Positions 23,250 to 30,262 of a stretch of 64,000 bases of DNA are shown here, piece after piece (positions within the stretch are counted from its first letter, which is position 1; every line of letters begins with the position of its first letter). The notes under the pieces were generated by a model. The model was not told the origin of the DNA, did no database searches, and saw only the letters and a program-made list of their open reading frames with translations. This DNA comes from Aquibium oceanicum. GTDB taxonomy: Bacteria > Pseudomonadota > Alphaproteobacteria > Rhizobiales > Rhizobiaceae. Position numbers and translations under genes: made by a program. The stretch is from NCBI RefSeq assembly GCF_001889605.1, contig NZ_CP018171.1, forward strand, positions 4,238,501-4,302,500. Direction: 5' to 3'.

Positions 23250-23363
23250 GCGCCTGATCCTCCTTGCGCCGGCGGAGACGCTGGACTCGGCCGACAAGTC
23301 GGGTCATGAGCGGCAGAAAGCATTCATCCGGGGCAGGATGGCGGATACCGGTTGGAGCGGGTC

Positions 23364-24047
23364 ATGGCAAGTCAAATGCTGGAAATGGAAGAGCGGCCGC
23401 AACCGCGGGCGAGGCTCACGGAAGACATCTTCGATGCGCTGTTCGCCGGCTGCACGCACGAGCACTATCGCGCCGGACACTACCTGTTCATGCAGGACGA
23501 CGTCGCCGAGCGTGTCTACGGGGTGATCGAGGGCGCGGTGGAGATCGCGCTCTATTCGGAAGGCGGCCGCAAGCTCGTCGCCAATCTCGAGACGGAAAAG
23601 TGTGTCTTCGGGGAGATCGCCACGCTCGACGGCGGCACCCGCACCGCGACCGCGACCTGTATGACCGACGCCACGCTGGTCTCCCTCTCGCGCCGCCAGC
23701 TCTTCGACCGCATCGAGCAGCACCCGAAGCTGGCGACGACGATGATTGGCCTGTTGTGCGCGCGGCTGCGCTACGTCAGCGCCGAACTCGGCGACCAGGC
23801 CCTCCTCAAGATCGAGGCGCGGCTCGCCAAACGCCTCTCGTTCCTGTCGGGCCTCATCAAGGACGAGGGCGGATGGATCCACATTTCGCAGTCGGACCTG
23901 GCGGAGTTCCTCGGCGCGACGCGGGAATCCGTCAACAAGACGCTGACCGACCTGCGCAAGTCCAAGCTCATCGACGTCAAGCGCGGGGCCATCAAGATCC
24001 TCAACGGCCGCGGCCTCGAACGGATCGGCGCCGCCTCCGGCGACTGA
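23364..24047 (+). CDS. Crp/Fnr family transcriptional regulator
   Basis: A 227-residue regulator. Residues about 25-130 form the cyclic-nucleotide-binding beta-barrel (YLFMQDDVAERVYGVIEGAVEI, CVFGEIATLDGGTRTATATC, where the FGEIA..DGGTRTA segment aligns with the cAMP phosphate-binding cassette). The C-terminal winged helix has ISQSDLAEFLGATRESVNKTL. No N-terminal cysteine cluster is present, so it is Crp-like rather than an Fnr oxygen sensor. The ATG at 23364 is preferred to an in-frame TTG at 23352 because GGAG precedes it. It is convergent with the P450-DyP gene, whose upstream neighbour is an adenylate cyclase gene. Confidence 0.92.
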   Translation: MASQMLEMEERPQPRARLTEDIFDALFAGCTHEHYRAGHYLFMQDDVAERVYGVIEGAVEIALYSEGGRKLVANLETEKCVFGEIATLDGGTRTATATCMTDATLVSLSRRQLFDRIEQHPKLATTMIGLLCARLRYVSAELGDQALLKIEARLAKRLSFLSGLIKDEGGWIHISQSDLAEFLGATRESVNKTLTDLRKSKLIDVKRGAIKILNGRGLERIGAASGD

Positions 24048-24081: not shown

Positions 24082-27000
24082 CTACGCGTCCACCAGTTCC
24101 CCTTCCACGGCCATCGCCTCCGCGGCTGGTCCGAGCGTCGACGGGTCGACGGCATTCGCCTCGCCGGCCAGCGCGCGCAGGTAGCGCAGCGAGCGCTTGC
24201 CGGGCATGAAGAAGTAGCCCCCGCCCTTCACCGTCACGAAAGCCGTCAGCCCCCGCAGCGTCAGCGGCCCGTCCGGCGTGGGGATGGTGTAGTTGCCCGG
24301 CGCCGACTGGTTGCCCACCAGCGGGTCCTGCTCGGCGCGCAGGCCGTTGAAGTTGGGGTTCATCACCCAGGTCTGCTGCACGAATTCGAACTGCCGTTCG
24401 ATGTCGGCATTGAGGCACATGAACAGGATGCCCTTCTCGGTCTCGCTCTCCCAGGCGCGGCTGATCCGCAGGATCCGGTGGCGCTTGGAAAGGGCGATCT
24501 GGGTGTCCGTGTCGGTGCCGAGCGAATCGCGCGGGTTGGAGCGGCGCACATGCGAACCGAAGGGGCACCGCAGGCCTTGCGGATCCTCCTTGGCGAACAG
24601 GAAGCCGTTGTCGGCCACGCTCCTCCTGCGGTTGGCGCCGGGCTGATCGGATGCGGAGGGATCGTCCTTGCGGGCGCTGCCGGTCGGATTGCGCACCAGC
24701 GACGAACCGTCCTTCCAGCGACCGAACATCTTGGCCCCGACCCACTCCTCCGTGGGCTTTCCGTCGATTTCGGGAGACCCGAGCGCCTCGGCGGCATCGC
24801 GGCAGAAATGCTCGAACCGGTCGACGTGCTGCGCCAGATGACGCACGACGAGGAACGATCCGTTGCGCCCGAAGTCCCGGCGCGTCGCATCCTCGGCGGG
24901 CGTCGTGGCCGAAGGCAGCCCCGCGAGATACCCGTCCGGATCGGTGGCGCCGTCCACGGTGAGCGACGTCGGCACGTAGCCGCTCTGGTCGGCATAGCCG
25001 AGCACGAACTCGCCCGCGGCGACCCGGTGCTGCCGGTCGCCCGCCGACCGCGCGCGCGGCGTGCCGTCGATGATCGGCTGCGAGATGCCGTCGCGGAAGC
25101 CGAAATGCTCGATCGGGTTGTCGTCGGCATCCTTCTTGATGATGAGCGGCTGGCGCGCGACCGCCACCATCCTCGAGGCCTTCGCGACCCGCGCGATCGC
25201 GGCGGTCTTCTTCCGCAGCCCGGCCTTCGTCCTGGCGTAGCACACGGCGACGGCATCGGCGGCGCTGTCGGGCGCGCCCCACAGCCAGTTCTCAGCCGCA
25301 CTTTCGCCGACGTCGCCCAGCACGCGAGCCTGGTTGGGAGCGGCCATGCCGCGCACGAACGCGGTCGGAAGTCCCGCGACGGCGCCGTCTCCGCCCAGGC
25401 CGAGCTTCCGCAGCCCCCCGGCGGCGAGGGCGACCACCATGGCGTCTTCCTCGGGCACGCGGTCGCCGAAGGTGGCGTTCGCCAGCACATGGTCGAGGAA
25501 GCGCCGCTTCTCGGTGTCGGTCAGATCCTCCGGCATGGAGAGCGCGATCATCTCCGCTTCACCGAGCTTGCCCATGCCGCCGAAGAAGATCGACTGGATC
25601 TCTTCGTTCTCGAGTTTCTGCGCGGGCAGCGGCGCCGAGCCGAACTCGGCGAAGAGCGCGGCGGCCTCGCTGTCGGAATCGGCCGAGGCGAAGGCAGTGC
25701 GGATTGCAGCGTTCTTGCGGATGTGGAAGGTCGTGAGCTTGGGATAGGCCGAATACCAGAACAGCGTCGGGATCTGCTGCTCGCGGGCCCAGAGCTTGAA
25801 CAGGTCGCCGTTCTCCGCCCCTCTCTGGAACAGGTTGCTGGTCTTCGGGTAGCCGAGCGTGTTGCTCCACACGCCCGTCAGGCCCTCGCTGGCCTTGGTG
25901 ATGAAGTCTTCGAGGTAGCTTCCCCAGCTGCCGCCGTAGTTGCTGAAGAAGAGCAGTTTGTTGGTTCCCGGCAGAAGCACCCAGCGCGCATAGTGGATCG
26001 AGCCGATGTCGGAGAGCCGCCCGGGCGGGAAGGCGTGCGTGGCTGCCCCCTTGATCACCGCGAATGCCAGCCGCAGAGTGAGCCGGCGCAAGAGCCCGGG
26101 CTTCATCACCGAGATGGCCGCCAGGTGATTGTGGGCGTGATGGTTCTCGCGATCGGCGATGGGGGCGAAACGCTCCGGCGGCAGAGGCGCGCCCTTCTCG
26201 GCGTCGCGACCTTCCTTCTGGCGCAAGGCCAGGTATGCGCCCCCGCCGATCGCCCCGACCAGGACGACGATCGACATGAACGCGAGCACGAAGCTCGCCA
26301 GCAGGATGAAGACGGCGCTCGCAACGCCGGTCACGGGTCCGAAGACGAAGCCGAAGAGCAGTGCCGTCAACCCCAGGCAGAGAACGGCTGCCGGACCCCA
26401 CACCTTCCAGTTCTTCAAGGTGGCCGAGAGCGCTTCCGTCAGCGGGCGCTCCGGACCCTCCAGCCCGTGCGACGCATGCTGGAAGGCCCATTCGAAGCCG
26501 CCGGCGAAGAGCACGGTTTCCCGCAGGCGTGCCAGCCGCTGGCTGGCGCTTTCGCCCGGCCGGCGCGGGTCGGTGGCGAGGATGTTCCGCAACCTCTCCT
26601 CGAAGGCGCTCTCCGCCTTGATGCGATGCACGGAATGGCCGGGCGTGCCGGTGAAGCAGAGCCCCGCCGCTTTGTGGATGCCGGGCGCGACGTCCACCGC
26701 GTGGCCGCGCATGAACTCGGCGAGATCGGCCCCCGGACGGAGCGCGCCGGCGGCCTCGAAGATCGGCCGCAGATGGCTCCCGGCATGTTCGGCGACGGCC
26801 GCGATGGCGGCGTCGCGCTCGCCATCGGCGGAAAACTCCAGCACCAGGTCGAGACGGTCGCCGGACTTCTCGGCCGCCGGATCAGCGCTACCGATCACCG
26901 ACATGCTGGCGAAGTGGACGATGCCGGTCTCGTCCAGCGCCCGGTTGATTCCTTCCATCGCCGGGTTGCCGAGCCTATCGACCGCCTCCCGCAGCATCTG

Positions 27001-28371
27001 CGCGTCGACACCTTCGCGCACCTTGGCAGCGATAGTGACGAAGGCATGGCCGACCGTCTTCGACGCCTCGGTCACGTCGAAATCGACATGCAGGGATTCG
27101 GGGAACGCGCCGCGACGCTTCATCTTGCCGGCCGAACCGGACGCGCGCCGCAGGTCCGGCCGCTGGAACAGCGCCCGCATGCATTCGGCGATCTGCACCT
27201 TGGCGATCGCGGAGCCGATGCACCAGTGGATGCCGTGGCCGTAAACCATGTAGTCCTTCGCCGGGCGGTCCGGGTTGAACCGCTCCGGATCGGCCACGGT
27301 CTCCTCGTCGAACATCGCCGACAGGATAGACGGCATGACAGTCATGCCCGCCTTCAGCTTCCTTTCGCGCCAGGTGCCCTGCGCGATCACGGCGTCGCTT
27401 GCGACATAGCGGAACGGGCCGATGAAGATCGGCTTGAAGCGCATCGTCTCCAGGATCGCCCGGTCGAGCGCTACGTCGTCGCCAGCCACCACCGCGTTGC
27501 GCACCGCGTGGTAGGCATCCTTGCGCGAGAGTAGGACGTCGAGGCAGTTGCCGGCCGCCAGCAGGTTAGTCGGCGCGAATCCGGAGATCATGCCCATCAT
27601 CACGGACTTGATGTCGTCACGCCGGAGCGTGTCGGGCTTGGCCTGGTGGATGGCGACCAGCCGGGCCAGCGGCGTGTCCGGCGGGCAGTCGCCGGCGATG
27701 GCGCGGTCGATGGAGCGATCGATCGCCTGGCGCATGTGATGAGCGGCGACGACGGCCAGTTCGCGGGTCTTGGCGTCGCCGGCCGGGTCGGAAAAGAACA
27801 GCGCGCTGAGCGCGATCGACCAGTCGGCGAACTGCTCCTCGTCGTCCACGACCATGCCGAAATACTCGCGGCAGATGCGCACGGGAATGCGCTTCAGGAG
27901 GCCGTCGACGGCGTCGAAGCCCGGTACCGCACCGCGCATGATCGCCTGCGAATGCGCGCGAGCGATCGGGCGGACGCGGCTTTCAACCTCGTCCGGAGGA
28001 AAGGCGGAGAGCACGGACGATTTCAGCGTCCGGTAGGCGCAGCCGTCCTGCATGCCGAGGATGAAGTTGGCCCCGCCGGCCATCTCCGCCATCTCGGGCC
28101 CGAACGGGGTCTGGAACACGTCCTGCCGCTCGAACACCTCGCGCACGTCGGCCGCCTTGGTGATGAGCGCGAAATTGCCGATGCGGGCGATCGGCCGGTA
28201 GCGCCGCAGCAGCGCCAGCCACCAGCGCGGGTTGTCGACCAGCGAGCCGATCACGCGCGAGGCCAGCCCCTTGCTGCGCATCCGTTCCGGATCGAAGGGC
28301 GGCAGTTCCGCCACCGGCTTCTGGCCGGCCTGCGCGCGCTTCACGCCGTCGAAGAATTTCGTCGTGAACAT
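24082..28371 (-). CDS. cytochrome P450 - transmembrane - DyP peroxidase fusion protein
   Basis: A 1429-residue protein with two heme domains. Residues 1-430 are a cytochrome P450: ExxR as ETMR (308-311), PERFNPDRP (362-370) and heme loop YGHGIHWCIG with the thiolate Cys384. The I-helix reads SGFAPTN (263-269), lacking the usual acid-Thr pair. Residues about 440-640 and 742-900 look like two alpha/beta ferredoxin-like units. Between them are two hydrophobic helices (about 657-681 and 685-715) that should anchor the protein in the inner membrane. Residues about 1000-1429 are a DyP-type peroxidase: GFRDGISQP (distal Asp1094) and CPFGSHVRRSNPRD (proximal His1274). No signal peptide. No frameshift or stop interrupts the reading frame, and codon use is uniform, so the fusion appears genuine. 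It lies 109 bp after an adenylate cyclase gene. A peroxide-driven oxidation role is inference. Confidence 0.9.
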   Translation of the reverse strand: MFTTKFFDGVKRAQAGQKPVAELPPFDPERMRSKGLASRVIGSLVDNPRWWLALLRRYRPIARIGNFALITKAADVREVFERQDVFQTPFGPEMAEMAGGANFILGMQDGCAYRTLKSSVLSAFPPDEVESRVRPIARAHSQAIMRGAVPGFDAVDGLLKRIPVRICREYFGMVVDDEEQFADWSIALSALFFSDPAGDAKTRELAVVAAHHMRQAIDRSIDRAIAGDCPPDTPLARLVAIHQAKPDTLRRDDIKSVMMGMISGFAPTNLLAAGNCLDVLLSRKDAYHAVRNAVVAGDDVALDRAILETMRFKPIFIGPFRYVASDAVIAQGTWRERKLKAGMTVMPSILSAMFDEETVADPERFNPDRPAKDYMVYGHGIHWCIGSAIAKVQIAECMRALFQRPDLRRASGSAGKMKRRGAFPESLHVDFDVTEASKTVGHAFVTIAAKVREGVDAQMLREAVDRLGNPAMEGINRALDETGIVHFASMSVIGSADPAAEKSGDRLDLVLEFSADGERDAAIAAVAEHAGSHLRPIFEAAGALRPGADLAEFMRGHAVDVAPGIHKAAGLCFTGTPGHSVHRIKAESAFEERLRNILATDPRRPGESASQRLARLRETVLFAGGFEWAFQHASHGLEGPERPLTEALSATLKNWKVWGPAAVLCLGLTALLFGFVFGPVTGVASAVFILLASFVLAFMSIVVLVGAIGGGAYLALRQKEGRDAEKGAPLPPERFAPIADRENHHAHNHLAAISVMKPGLLRRLTLRLAFAVIKGAATHAFPPGRLSDIGSIHYARWVLLPGTNKLLFFSNYGGSWGSYLEDFITKASEGLTGVWSNTLGYPKTSNLFQRGAENGDLFKLWAREQQIPTLFWYSAYPKLTTFHIRKNAAIRTAFASADSDSEAAALFAEFGSAPLPAQKLENEEIQSIFFGGMGKLGEAEMIALSMPEDLTDTEKRRFLDHVLANATFGDRVPEEDAMVVALAAGGLRKLGLGGDGAVAGLPTAFVRGMAAPNQARVLGDVGESAAENWLWGAPDSAADAVAVCYARTKAGLRKKTAAIARVAKASRMVAVARQPLIIKKDADDNPIEHFGFRDGISQPIIDGTPRARSAGDRQHRVAAGEFVLGYADQSGYVPTSLTVDGATDPDGYLAGLPSATTPAEDATRRDFGRNGSFLVVRHLAQHVDRFEHFCRDAAEALGSPEIDGKPTEEWVGAKMFGRWKDGSSLVRNPTGSARKDDPSASDQPGANRRRSVADNGFLFAKEDPQGLRCPFGSHVRRSNPRDSLGTDTDTQIALSKRHRILRISRAWESETEKGILFMCLNADIERQFEFVQQTWVMNPNFNGLRAEQDPLVGNQSAPGNYTIPTPDGPLTLRGLTAFVTVKGGGYFFMPGKRSLRYLRALAGEANAVDPSTLGPAAEAMAVEGELVDA

Positions 28372-28480: not shown

Positions 28481-30262
28481 TCAATCGCCGGTCATCAGGT
28501 ATCCGTCGATCAGGAACCGGTTGAGTTCGGCCCGCGCGAAGGGAATCACCTCGGCACGTTCGACGCGGAAGTCCGGGTCGCGCGCAAGAAGCAGGGATCG
28601 TTCGCGCCGCGCCTCTTCGCGCCGGCCCATCCGGGCGAGCGCGCCGACCTTGAGGAAGCGCGCGTACCAGTAGGAGGGGGCGAGCGCGAGCGAGCGGTCG
28701 GCGGCCGCGGCCGCGGCCGGCCAATCCTCCACATGGCTGTAGGCGGAGGCGAGCTCGCCGAGATTGTGGAAGCGGTAGAGATCGAACGGGCTCAGCCGTT
28801 CCGCGTCCTGGAACAGGGGAATGGCGCGCGACGCCTCGCCGAGCAGATTGTGCGCGCTGCCCATGGCGGAGCGCGCGAAGGCGAAGCTCGGATTGATCCG
28901 CAGCGCTTCCGCCAGATGTTCCAGCGCGTTCGCCGGGCGCGTCAGCATGATGTCGGTGATGCCCAGATGCGCGTGCGGGCGCGCGTCCTGGCTGTCCATG
29001 TAGAGCGCCTTGCGGGAATAGTGGACGACCTTTTCCAGATCCTTCTGGTAGTCGCCCGAGCCGCCGAAATTCACCCAGGCGCGCCAGAAGTGCCACCAGG
29101 CGAGTTCGTCGAGCACGGTGCTCGAATTGGGGTCGCGGTCGAAGGCGGCGAGGAAGAAGTCCAGCGCCATCTGCGTGTCCTCGCGGGTGCGGCGCTGCAT
29201 GTGCCAGCGGCCGCGCCGCACCAGTTGCCAGGTCTCCAGGCTCTCCCAGGGGACGCGGAAGGTCCGCGCCTGCTCCATGCGGTCGACTTCCTTTTCCAGC
29301 GTCGCGACGATCTCGGTTCCGATCTCGCTCTGCATCTCGGTCATCTCGCTGGCGTCGCGATCGTAGCGGCGCGACCAGATGTTGCGGTTGGTCGAGGCGT
29401 CGTCCAGCGCGGCGCGCAGGCGCAGCGTGCTGCCGCTGCGCGACAGGGTGCCGGTGACGACGTAGCGCGCGCCCAGCGCACGTCCGGCCGCTTCCGGCAT
29501 CATGGCTTCGTCGGTGAGCTGGCGGCTGGAGTTCATGGCGATCACGGGCAGCCAGCGCGTATTGGAAAGCCCTGCGATGATGTCCTCGGCGATGCCCTCG
29601 CCCATGTAGCGGATCTCGGGATCGTCCGCATCGATCCGGAAGGGAAGGACCGCGACCGCTGGCGGACCGCCCTTTCCGTCGGCGCGGAAGAAGGAGAACG
29701 CGGGCGCCGAATCCTGGCCTTCGGGGCGCGCCGACGTTCCCCGCTCGACGCGGTAGGCGCGCACGGGCAAAAGGATGTTGTGGAACTCCCGTTCCCCCAG
29801 ATCGACGAAGCTCACCGCCGCGCGTCCGCGGACGTGGTGCCAGGTGGTCTCCGAGATCACCACCCCGCCATCCGGCGCGATCTCCTGCAGCCGAGCGGAG
29901 ATGTTGACGTCGTCGCCGTACCGGCTCTCGTCGCGGACGATCACCTGGCCGGTGTTGATCCCGGCACGGAACGCCATGCGCCGCTCCGGCGGCAGGCCCT
30001 CGTTTGCGGCCCGGATGTGGTCCTGGAAGTCCAGCACGGCCAGCAGCGCGTCGATCGGCGCGCCGAACTCGGCCATCATGCTGTCGCCCGCCGGGCCGAA
30101 CATGCGGCCACCGAACCTGTTGCAGGTGGCGTCGATGAGGTCGCGCCGCTCCTCGAAGATCGCGACCGCCGCCTCGTCGTCGATACCCATCAGGCGCGAG
30201 AACCCGACCGCATCGATCGAAACGATCGTCGCCACGTGCCGTATGAAATCACGGCCGGCCAT
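28481..30262 (-). CDS. class III adenylate/guanylate cyclase with TPR domain
   Basis: A 593-residue protein. Residues 1-170 are a class III cyclase homology domain: metal-binding Asp17 in SIDAVGFSRLMG, second metal Asp60 in GPAGDSMMAEFG, and YGDDVNISARLQEIA with the Asn and Arg that position the transition state. Residues about 200-320 are a TolB-like region (AVAVLPFRIDADD, YMGEGIAEDIIAGLS), and the rest is TPR-like (ALEHLAEALRINPSFAFA, SLALAPSYWYARFLKVGALAR). This cyclase-TolB-TPR architecture is common in rhizobia. It probably produces cAMP and is cytoplasmic, since no membrane helix is seen. The next gene on the strand is the P450-DyP fusion, 109 bp away. A Crp-like regulator gene lies beyond that. 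Confidence 0.9.
   Translation of the reverse strand: MAGRDFIRHVATIVSIDAVGFSRLMGIDDEAAVAIFEERRDLIDATCNRFGGRMFGPAGDSMMAEFGAPIDALLAVLDFQDHIRAANEGLPPERRMAFRAGINTGQVIVRDESRYGDDVNISARLQEIAPDGGVVISETTWHHVRGRAAVSFVDLGEREFHNILLPVRAYRVERGTSARPEGQDSAPAFSFFRADGKGGPPAVAVLPFRIDADDPEIRYMGEGIAEDIIAGLSNTRWLPVIAMNSSRQLTDEAMMPEAAGRALGARYVVTGTLSRSGSTLRLRAALDDASTNRNIWSRRYDRDASEMTEMQSEIGTEIVATLEKEVDRMEQARTFRVPWESLETWQLVRRGRWHMQRRTREDTQMALDFFLAAFDRDPNSSTVLDELAWWHFWRAWVNFGGSGDYQKDLEKVVHYSRKALYMDSQDARPHAHLGITDIMLTRPANALEHLAEALRINPSFAFARSAMGSAHNLLGEASRAIPLFQDAERLSPFDLYRFHNLGELASAYSHVEDWPAAAAAADRSLALAPSYWYARFLKVGALARMGRREEARRERSLLLARDPDFRVERAEVIPFARAELNRFLIDGYLMTGD

Follow-up and report, generated by a model that had tools for sequence, protein, structure and literature searches.

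A conserved four-part chain joining a cytochrome P450 to a DyP-type peroxidase in Aquibium oceanicum and other bacteria

Results

In a 64,000 nt stretch of the Aquibium oceanicum contig NZ_CP018171.1 (GCF_001889605.1; 4,238,501-4,302,500), hereafter the window, whose own numbering is used below, we found a reading frame that encodes a cytochrome P450 and a DyP-type peroxidase at the two ends of one long chain with a predicted membrane anchor between them. The architecture is conserved at 45 loci, residues of both haem sites are intact, the P450 has lost the usual acid of its I-helix, P450 and catalase-related proteins replace each other as partners of related DyP proteins, and the neighboring genes are largely constant. 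Many soil bacteria carry such a protein, and its layout recalls that of fungal lipid-signal enzymes. Tentatively, and with rather less than even confidence, we favor by analogy the reading that the fusion would work as a redox-partner-free tandem using peroxide or hydroperoxide on a lipophilic substrate.

Architecture and conservation of the fusion

The frame lies on the minus strand (28371-24082), starts with ATG and runs for 1429 codons with no internal stop, as an earlier reading of the stretch made from the sequence only had stated. Its layout of a P450, transmembrane (TM) helices and a DyP domain stands as well, except that two further domains flanking the TM hairpin, here termed FD1 and FD2, had been missed. 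From the N- to the C-terminus of the 1429 amino acid (aa) protein the parts are:

27082..28371, minus strand: P450 domain, aa 1-430 (Pfam p450, PDB matches, alignment of family and control proteins)
27220-27222, minus strand: codon of the haem-thiolate Cys384 in the P450 domain (family alignment)
27568-27573, minus strand: I-helix Pro267-Thr268, where an acid-Thr pair is usual
26482..27057, minus strand: FD1, alpha/beta domain without a Pfam family, aa ~439-630 (AlphaFold model, hidden Markov model (HMM) map)
26209..26409, minus strand: TM hairpin, aa ~655-721, with helices at ~655-675 and 683-721 (AlphaFold model, hydropathy)
25648..26178, minus strand: FD2, alpha/beta domain, aa ~732-908 (AlphaFold model, HMM map, Foldseek)
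24172..25611, minus strand: DyP domain, aa ~921-1400 (TIGR01413; Asp1094, His1274, Arg1302)

Domain searches recovered both enzymes on the one protein: Pfam p450 matched above its cut-off at 302-408 (E 1.4e-10) and NCBIfam TIGR01413 (Dyp-type peroxidase) just above its own at 1031-1393 (100.7 vs 100.5 bits), while Pfam Dyp_perox_C stayed below threshold (17.4 vs 20 bits). Sequence matches in the PDB were to P450s over ~51-399 and to DyPs over ~1159-1400. The haem-ligand residues Cys384, Asp1094 and His1274 had been placed correctly, and the distal Arg1302 can be added to them. Public annotations name the fusion genes either 'cytochrome P450' or 'Dyp-type peroxidase domain-containing protein'.

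The full frame was present without stops in all five genomes of the genus, that of A. oceanicum included, at 64-100% identity. Against the 88% relative, the ratio of nonsynonymous to synonymous change (pN/pS) was 0.15 for the P450, 0.05 for the junction 420-450, 0.22 for FD1, 0.52 for the TM hairpin, 0.12 for FD2 and 0.19 for the DyP domain; against a 65% relative it was 0.34-0.51 for the domains and 0.80 for the TM hairpin. These values indicate purifying selection on every domain and on the P450-FD1 junction, with the hairpin held more loosely.

An FD2 profile matched 50 of the 297 genomes sampled from the family and 27 of the 398 sampled from the phylum; the two samples share the genomes G000 and G542. 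The four-part fusion itself was carried by 36 of the family genomes (37 loci) and seven of the phylum genomes. The complete set of 45 fusion loci, to which plasmids of Pararhizobium, Novosphingobium and Sulfitobacter contributed, over-represents this family because loci were found with the window protein or FD2 as query. The fusion count was not drawn from a class-level survey, in which two candidates were scored per genome and ordinary P450s swamped the result. In one genome (G420) both main types of four-part fusion occur, once each (L139, L152).

The joining of two haem enzymes in a single membrane-anchored chain is therefore a real and conserved architecture. An assembly error or chance frame, with homologues always encoded separately, was ruled out by the five genus genomes, the 45 fused loci and the pattern of purifying selection. 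An origin as a phage or defence gene was also rejected, the fusion having no PHROGs or PADLOC match.

The P450 domain has lost the I-helix acid

The superfamily motifs of P450s are present in the N-terminal domain: ExxR reads ETMR at 308, and the haem loop contains Cys384, with its first Phe replaced by Tyr. The thiolate Cys was kept in all 59 well-scoring DyP-associated P450s of the alignment. Conventional O2-activating P450s have an acid-alcohol pair in the I-helix; the fusion P450 retains the alcohol (Thr268) and has Pro267 at the column assigned to the acid by alignment, so that on its sequence it would not be grouped with them. At this column the 59 proteins have Pro in 55 cases, Asp in two (L045, L042), Ala in one and Gly in one, and Pro-Thr is found in all 45 four-part fusions. 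Of 25 P450s taken as controls from the surveyed genomes, by contrast, 22 have the acid and none has Pro. Ten low-scoring rows were set aside from the 59, namely five weak reversed fusions, L188 (96 bits) and four canonical proteins with Glu-Thr, two of them on the contig of L042 and the others at L062 and L063, which are classed as catalase-related and not as P450-adjacent loci; the acid is absent from the remaining six.

Crude motif matching, aimed at small ferredoxins alone and reaching 4 kb from the 45 fusions, gave three frames, which look like antisense GC-rich sequence and not like genes. The alignment also showed that the 45 fusions lack the nine-residue insertion in the haem-binding loop that is described for the CYP74 clan of plant and animal hydroperoxide isomerases (PMC8124189; here and below, published work is cited from the accessible part of each paper).

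These data bear on two alternatives. First, the protein may be an ordinary P450 monooxygenase served by unlinked ferredoxins, with the DyP guarding against peroxide leak. The kept I-helix Thr, ExxR and Cys-loop motifs would suit it, as would the Asp-Thr of two DyP-associated P450s, and the ferredoxin scan covered just the surroundings of the fusions; however, the acid is lost in 45 of 45 fusions and kept in 22 of 25 controls, and the P450 is exchanged for catalase-related proteins, and we regard this alternative as quite improbable. The suggestion of peroxide removal next to an oxygenase, made in the sequence-only reading, loses support, since the usual acid is missing here and the P450 slot can be occupied by a catalase-related protein, whereas its idea of a peroxide-driven oxidation fits the Pro found in all fusions.

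Second, the two domains may form a peroxygenase pair, in which the P450 hydroxylates a lipophilic substrate with H2O2 and the DyP oxidizes the product or lowers local peroxide, no hydroperoxide intermediate being passed between them. Loss of the acid, the absence of ferredoxins from the motif scan and the intact DyP site are all consistent with this, but the replacement of the P450 by catalase-related proteins in other modules would go unexplained. We consider such a pair unlikely.

Split, reversed and catalase-related forms

We compared 92 DyP rows. They comprise the 45 four-part fusions, six reversed DyP-P450 fusions, 14 proteins encoded next to a P450 gene, 13 next to or fused with a catalase-related one, and 14 for which neither partner was found. 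In the DyP tree, where some rows are on long branches, the reversed fusions form one supported clade (100/99) separate from the four-part fusions, and labels change three times for the four-part and three times for the catalase-related form. The two fusion orders therefore had separate origins, and the partner was exchanged more than once. These forms, like the gene neighbors and the resemblance to P450-peroxidase fusions of fungi and oomycetes, were overlooked in the sequence-only reading.

The reversed fusions (L051:710-3733, L050:9685-13614 and L162-L165) are 1007-1309 aa long. In five of the six the P450 half is very divergent and scores only 42-63 bits against the HMM made for this analysis; for L050, the one weak reversed fusion tested, a Pfam P450 call was absent. 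A 900-aa frame at L176:6688-9390 seems to join a DyP to a catalase-related domain, judging by scores of 60 and 82, and another catalase-related gene lies ~4.3 kb away. Among ten plasmid regions of other groups with an FD2-DyP pair, five have an adjoining gene annotated as 'catalase family protein' (Acinetobacter, Rhodococcus, Deinococcus, Sphingomonas, Paracoccus). In Methylorubrum a catalase-related gene takes the partner slot, and the P450 encoded nearby is canonical (AGHETT) with its own ferredoxin and flavin adenine dinucleotide (FAD) oxidoreductase genes. Elsewhere in the genus genomes, a catalase-related gene was found in one of five, as a weak match.

Three Rhizobium proteins composed of FD1, FD2 and DyP without a P450 (L060, L122 and L123, the last with its frame in two pieces) stand beside the fusions in the DyP tree. 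L060 has a neighboring protein of the Exo_endo_phos family (sub-threshold), and so has the unrelated L046.

The DyP domain and its relation to DrDyP

Work on DyPs has dealt with the free enzymes, and their roles in nature are for the most part unclear. In the window protein D1094 is the Asp of the GXXDG motif, H1274 the proximal and R1302 the distal residue, and the corresponding catalytic Asp, proximal His and distal Arg are invariant in all 92 DyP rows. By its sequence the C-terminal domain belongs with DyP-type peroxidases, and peroxidase activity is predicted for it.

The best PDB sequence match of the domain was DrDyP from Deinococcus radiodurans (PDB 8RE2/8RE3). At locus L194 of this species (L194:5695-8928) a DyP gene lies between a gene for an FD2-like hypothetical protein and a catalase-family gene. 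Its product has the key residues of DrDyP, each shifted by the same three positions, which makes it almost certain that this is the gene of the crystallized protein. DrDyP is free-standing, was studied alone, and proved inactive at neutral pH; its authors raise the speculation that it is under the control of other proteins in vivo, and the accessible part of their paper makes no mention of the neighboring FD2 and catalase-family genes. These neighbors may explain why it shows so little activity by itself, and the partnership described here may thus bear on that inactivity.

A third alternative is detoxification at the membrane, in which the DyP and a second haem protein destroy lipid or organic hydroperoxides and the cyclase and Crp neighbors described below act as stress regulators. 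The interchangeable P450 and catalase-related partners, the modeled TM anchor, the Crp neighbor and the D. radiodurans gene order could be accommodated by it. Detoxification of peroxides is, however, usually the work of catalases and peroxiredoxins, and a fusion would imply channeling, not scavenging. DrDyP, moreover, is a poor peroxidase at neutral pH. We give this alternative a low probability.

FD1, FD2 and the TM hairpin

Neither FD1 nor FD2 has a Pfam family or a PDB sequence match. An AlphaFold model of aa 430-930 (45 relatives) had a mean predicted local distance difference test score (pLDDT) of 90.2 and a predicted TM-score (pTM) of 0.87, and placed two alpha/beta domains around two long helices. 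The two TM helices proposed earlier between the haem domains thus agree with the model; a hydropathy scan showed them as a single hydrophobic run (657-717). The best Foldseek match of the modeled FD1 and FD2 was a polyketide decarboxylase, 9ltx (E 4.9e-3, probability 1.00; none below 1e-3), with a TM-score of 0.55 by target and 0.28 by query and a root mean square deviation of 8.8, followed by an ABM/SchA-like protein (probability 0.41). A possible likeness of the two modeled domains to ABM-type dimeric alpha-beta barrels is thus taken as a lead only. FD2 recurs as a separate protein adjoining DyP genes in other phyla.

Gene neighborhood

Two genes accompany the fusion in the window:

28481..30262, minus strand: CYC, class III cyclase domain with tetratricopeptide repeats (TPR), 110 nt upstream of the fusion on the same strand
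23352..24047, plus strand: CRP, Crp/Fnr-type regulator (Pfam cNMP_binding and HTH_Crp_2), convergent, 35 nt from the fusion end

CYC matched the Pfam families Guanylate_cyc (24.0 bits vs a cut-off of 21.9) and TPR. The most constant neighbor is a TPR protein, in most cases with a cyclase domain, whose gene lies upstream on the same strand at 42 of the 45 fusion loci (strict rule). In the main clade this protein has a class III cyclase domain; the metal-binding Asp pair is present in 35 of 44 aligned relatives and absent from nine more distant ones. A convergent Crp/Fnr-type gene lies within 400 nt at 33 of the 45 loci. No shared palindrome was found upstream of CYC or CRP, the best repeats recurring in 3/34 and 3/35 close relatives.

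With such neighbors the fusion might be a sensor and not a pair of enzymes, its haem domains detecting a lipophilic oxidant or gas and signaling to the TPR/cyclase and Crp partners that adjoin it so often. Yet the catalytic residues of the DyP never vary, the split and catalase-related forms mostly lack both partners in the fetched loci, and a common regulatory palindrome failed to appear. We regard a sensor as very improbable.

Genes that act on lipids adjoin some of the split modules. At L184 a patatin gene lies between the DyP and P450 genes, with a FadL-type porin adjoining; at L045 an LCAT-like protein is encoded 12 nt from the P450; and at L175 a DUF676 serine esterase adjoins the catalase-related gene. 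Annotations near catalase-type modules include 3-hydroxyacyl-CoA dehydrogenases, a thioesterase and an acyl-CoA dehydrogenase. It should be added that the L184 patatin (L184:6708-7739) shows a sub-threshold NCBIfam resemblance to the phospholipases of CBASS defence systems.

We also searched for other oxidases. An_peroxidase (PF03098), which we take to be the cyclooxygenase-type haem peroxidase domain of the fungal dioxygenase-P450 fusions (DOX-CYPs), had no match in the window fusion at E 0.001 in Pfam, the peroxidase there being a DyP. Matches to this cyclooxygenase-superfamily domain were found far from the fusion locus in two of the five genus genomes, that of A. oceanicum included (L201, G000:C1:3773814-3774341), so another candidate oxidase is present in it. 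Lipoxygenase, considered as a further source of hydroperoxide, matched none of the five genomes, a result that shows nothing, as the control also matched nowhere.

Discussion

P450-haem peroxidase fusions are already known from fungi and oomycetes. The fungal DOX-CYPs (linoleate diol, epoxy alcohol and allene oxide synthases; CYP6001-CYP6005) likewise join a haem peroxidase-type enzyme to a P450, are described as self-sufficient with the bacterial HxC motif kept, and have an unusual I-helix region: in members with 9-allene oxide synthase (9-AOS) activity '(V/A)PxT' and 'TPxG' place a Pro near the haem (PMC13049297). They differ in that their peroxidase is of the cyclooxygenase superfamily and precedes the P450 (PMC5919972), and no FD1, TM or FD2 parts are described in the accessible text (PMC13049297). 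Oomycete CYP5619 fusions have the same order as ours, with an N-terminal P450 and a C-terminal haem peroxidase/dioxygenase, which their authors regard as fungal-type and which is not a DyP (PMC5919972). With a peroxidase domain assigned by sequence to another superfamily, the fusion is not a member of the DOX-CYPs (CYP6001-6005, CYP5619). The triads of FD2, DyP and a catalase-related protein find parallels in the coral allene oxide synthase-lipoxygenase, a dioxygenase coupled with a catalase-related isomerase (PMC5617202; PDB 3dy5 and 1u5u compared), and in a cyanobacterial 10S-dioxygenase with a catalase-related hydroperoxide lyase (Brash 2014), except that a lipoxygenase or cyclooxygenase-like dioxygenase stands in place of the DyP. 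The literature searched, by titles and the beginnings of abstracts and with subscription journals mostly missing, reported no P450-DyP fusion.

We favor the redox-partner-free tandem because a haem peroxidase with a P450 or catalase-related partner is the pattern of oxylipin (hydroperoxide-isomerase) systems, and because the P450s of those systems are described as self-sufficient, with Pro near the haem in 9-AOS members. FD1 and FD2 with the TM hairpin would tether both enzymes to the membrane, the site at which a lipophilic substrate could be taken up. Peroxide would charge the DyP haem, and the DyP would oxidize the substrate or make or handle its hydroperoxide. The P450, lacking the acid with which ordinary P450s activate O2 using electrons from redox partners, would then isomerize or cleave the (hydro)peroxide, or use peroxide directly, without ferredoxin and reductase. 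The second haem protein would thus serve as the isomerase, as in the fungal dioxygenase-P450 and coral catalase-related fusions. We infer that both haems are active, that the steps follow this order, that the substrate is a lipid and that the cyclase and Crp partners reflect a signal role.

Several points weigh against this reading. To our knowledge these bacteria lack polyunsaturated fatty acids, and linoleate would then be an unlikely substrate of their own. Any activity of the four-part members is a prediction from sequence. Thr is retained in all 45 fusions, leaving the acid-Thr pair only half lost, and the L045 and L042 P450s retain the canonical Asp-Thr. The ferredoxin scan was crude. 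In the other five of the ten FD2-DyP plasmid regions (Granulicella, Streptomyces, Gloeothece, Sinorhizobium, Bradyrhizobium), neither a catalase nor a P450 is annotated. By fold, the catalase-related partner is no closer to the coral AOS, which appears at ranks 40 and 44, than to true catalases, and an AOS-specific match was accordingly rejected. Lipid clues came from four of 40 scanned neighbor or module proteins, a count without a chance control. Finally, DrDyP, the solved member of the wider clade, is inactive alone at neutral pH.

A more specific proposal, which we hold to be possible but doubtful, is that the fusion is an independently evolved bacterial counterpart of the fungal oxylipin synthases. 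The DyP would be a lipid dioxygenase or peroxide-level oxidase joined by the membrane module to a redox-free hydroperoxide-isomerase P450, catalase-related isomerases would substitute for the latter elsewhere, and the lipid-derived signals would be under cyclase/Crp control. If the P450 is a hydroperoxide isomerase, the protein would be a DyP-based version of the fungal and oomycete dioxygenase-P450 tandem, and a self-contained biocatalyst for which a reductase is not needed. The fixed partnership of a DyP with FD2 and a P450 or catalase-related protein, seen in operons and in two fusion orders, offers in any case a concrete hypothesis for the role of one DyP clade.

Other DyP proteins were encountered among the loci. 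Three are long and have extended C-terminal parts (L052:7926-11534, 1202 aa; L166:6120-10193, 1357 aa; L190:392-5155, 1587 aa), and at L185:2885-4279 a RoxA-like cytochrome c gene adjoins an FD2-DyP pair.

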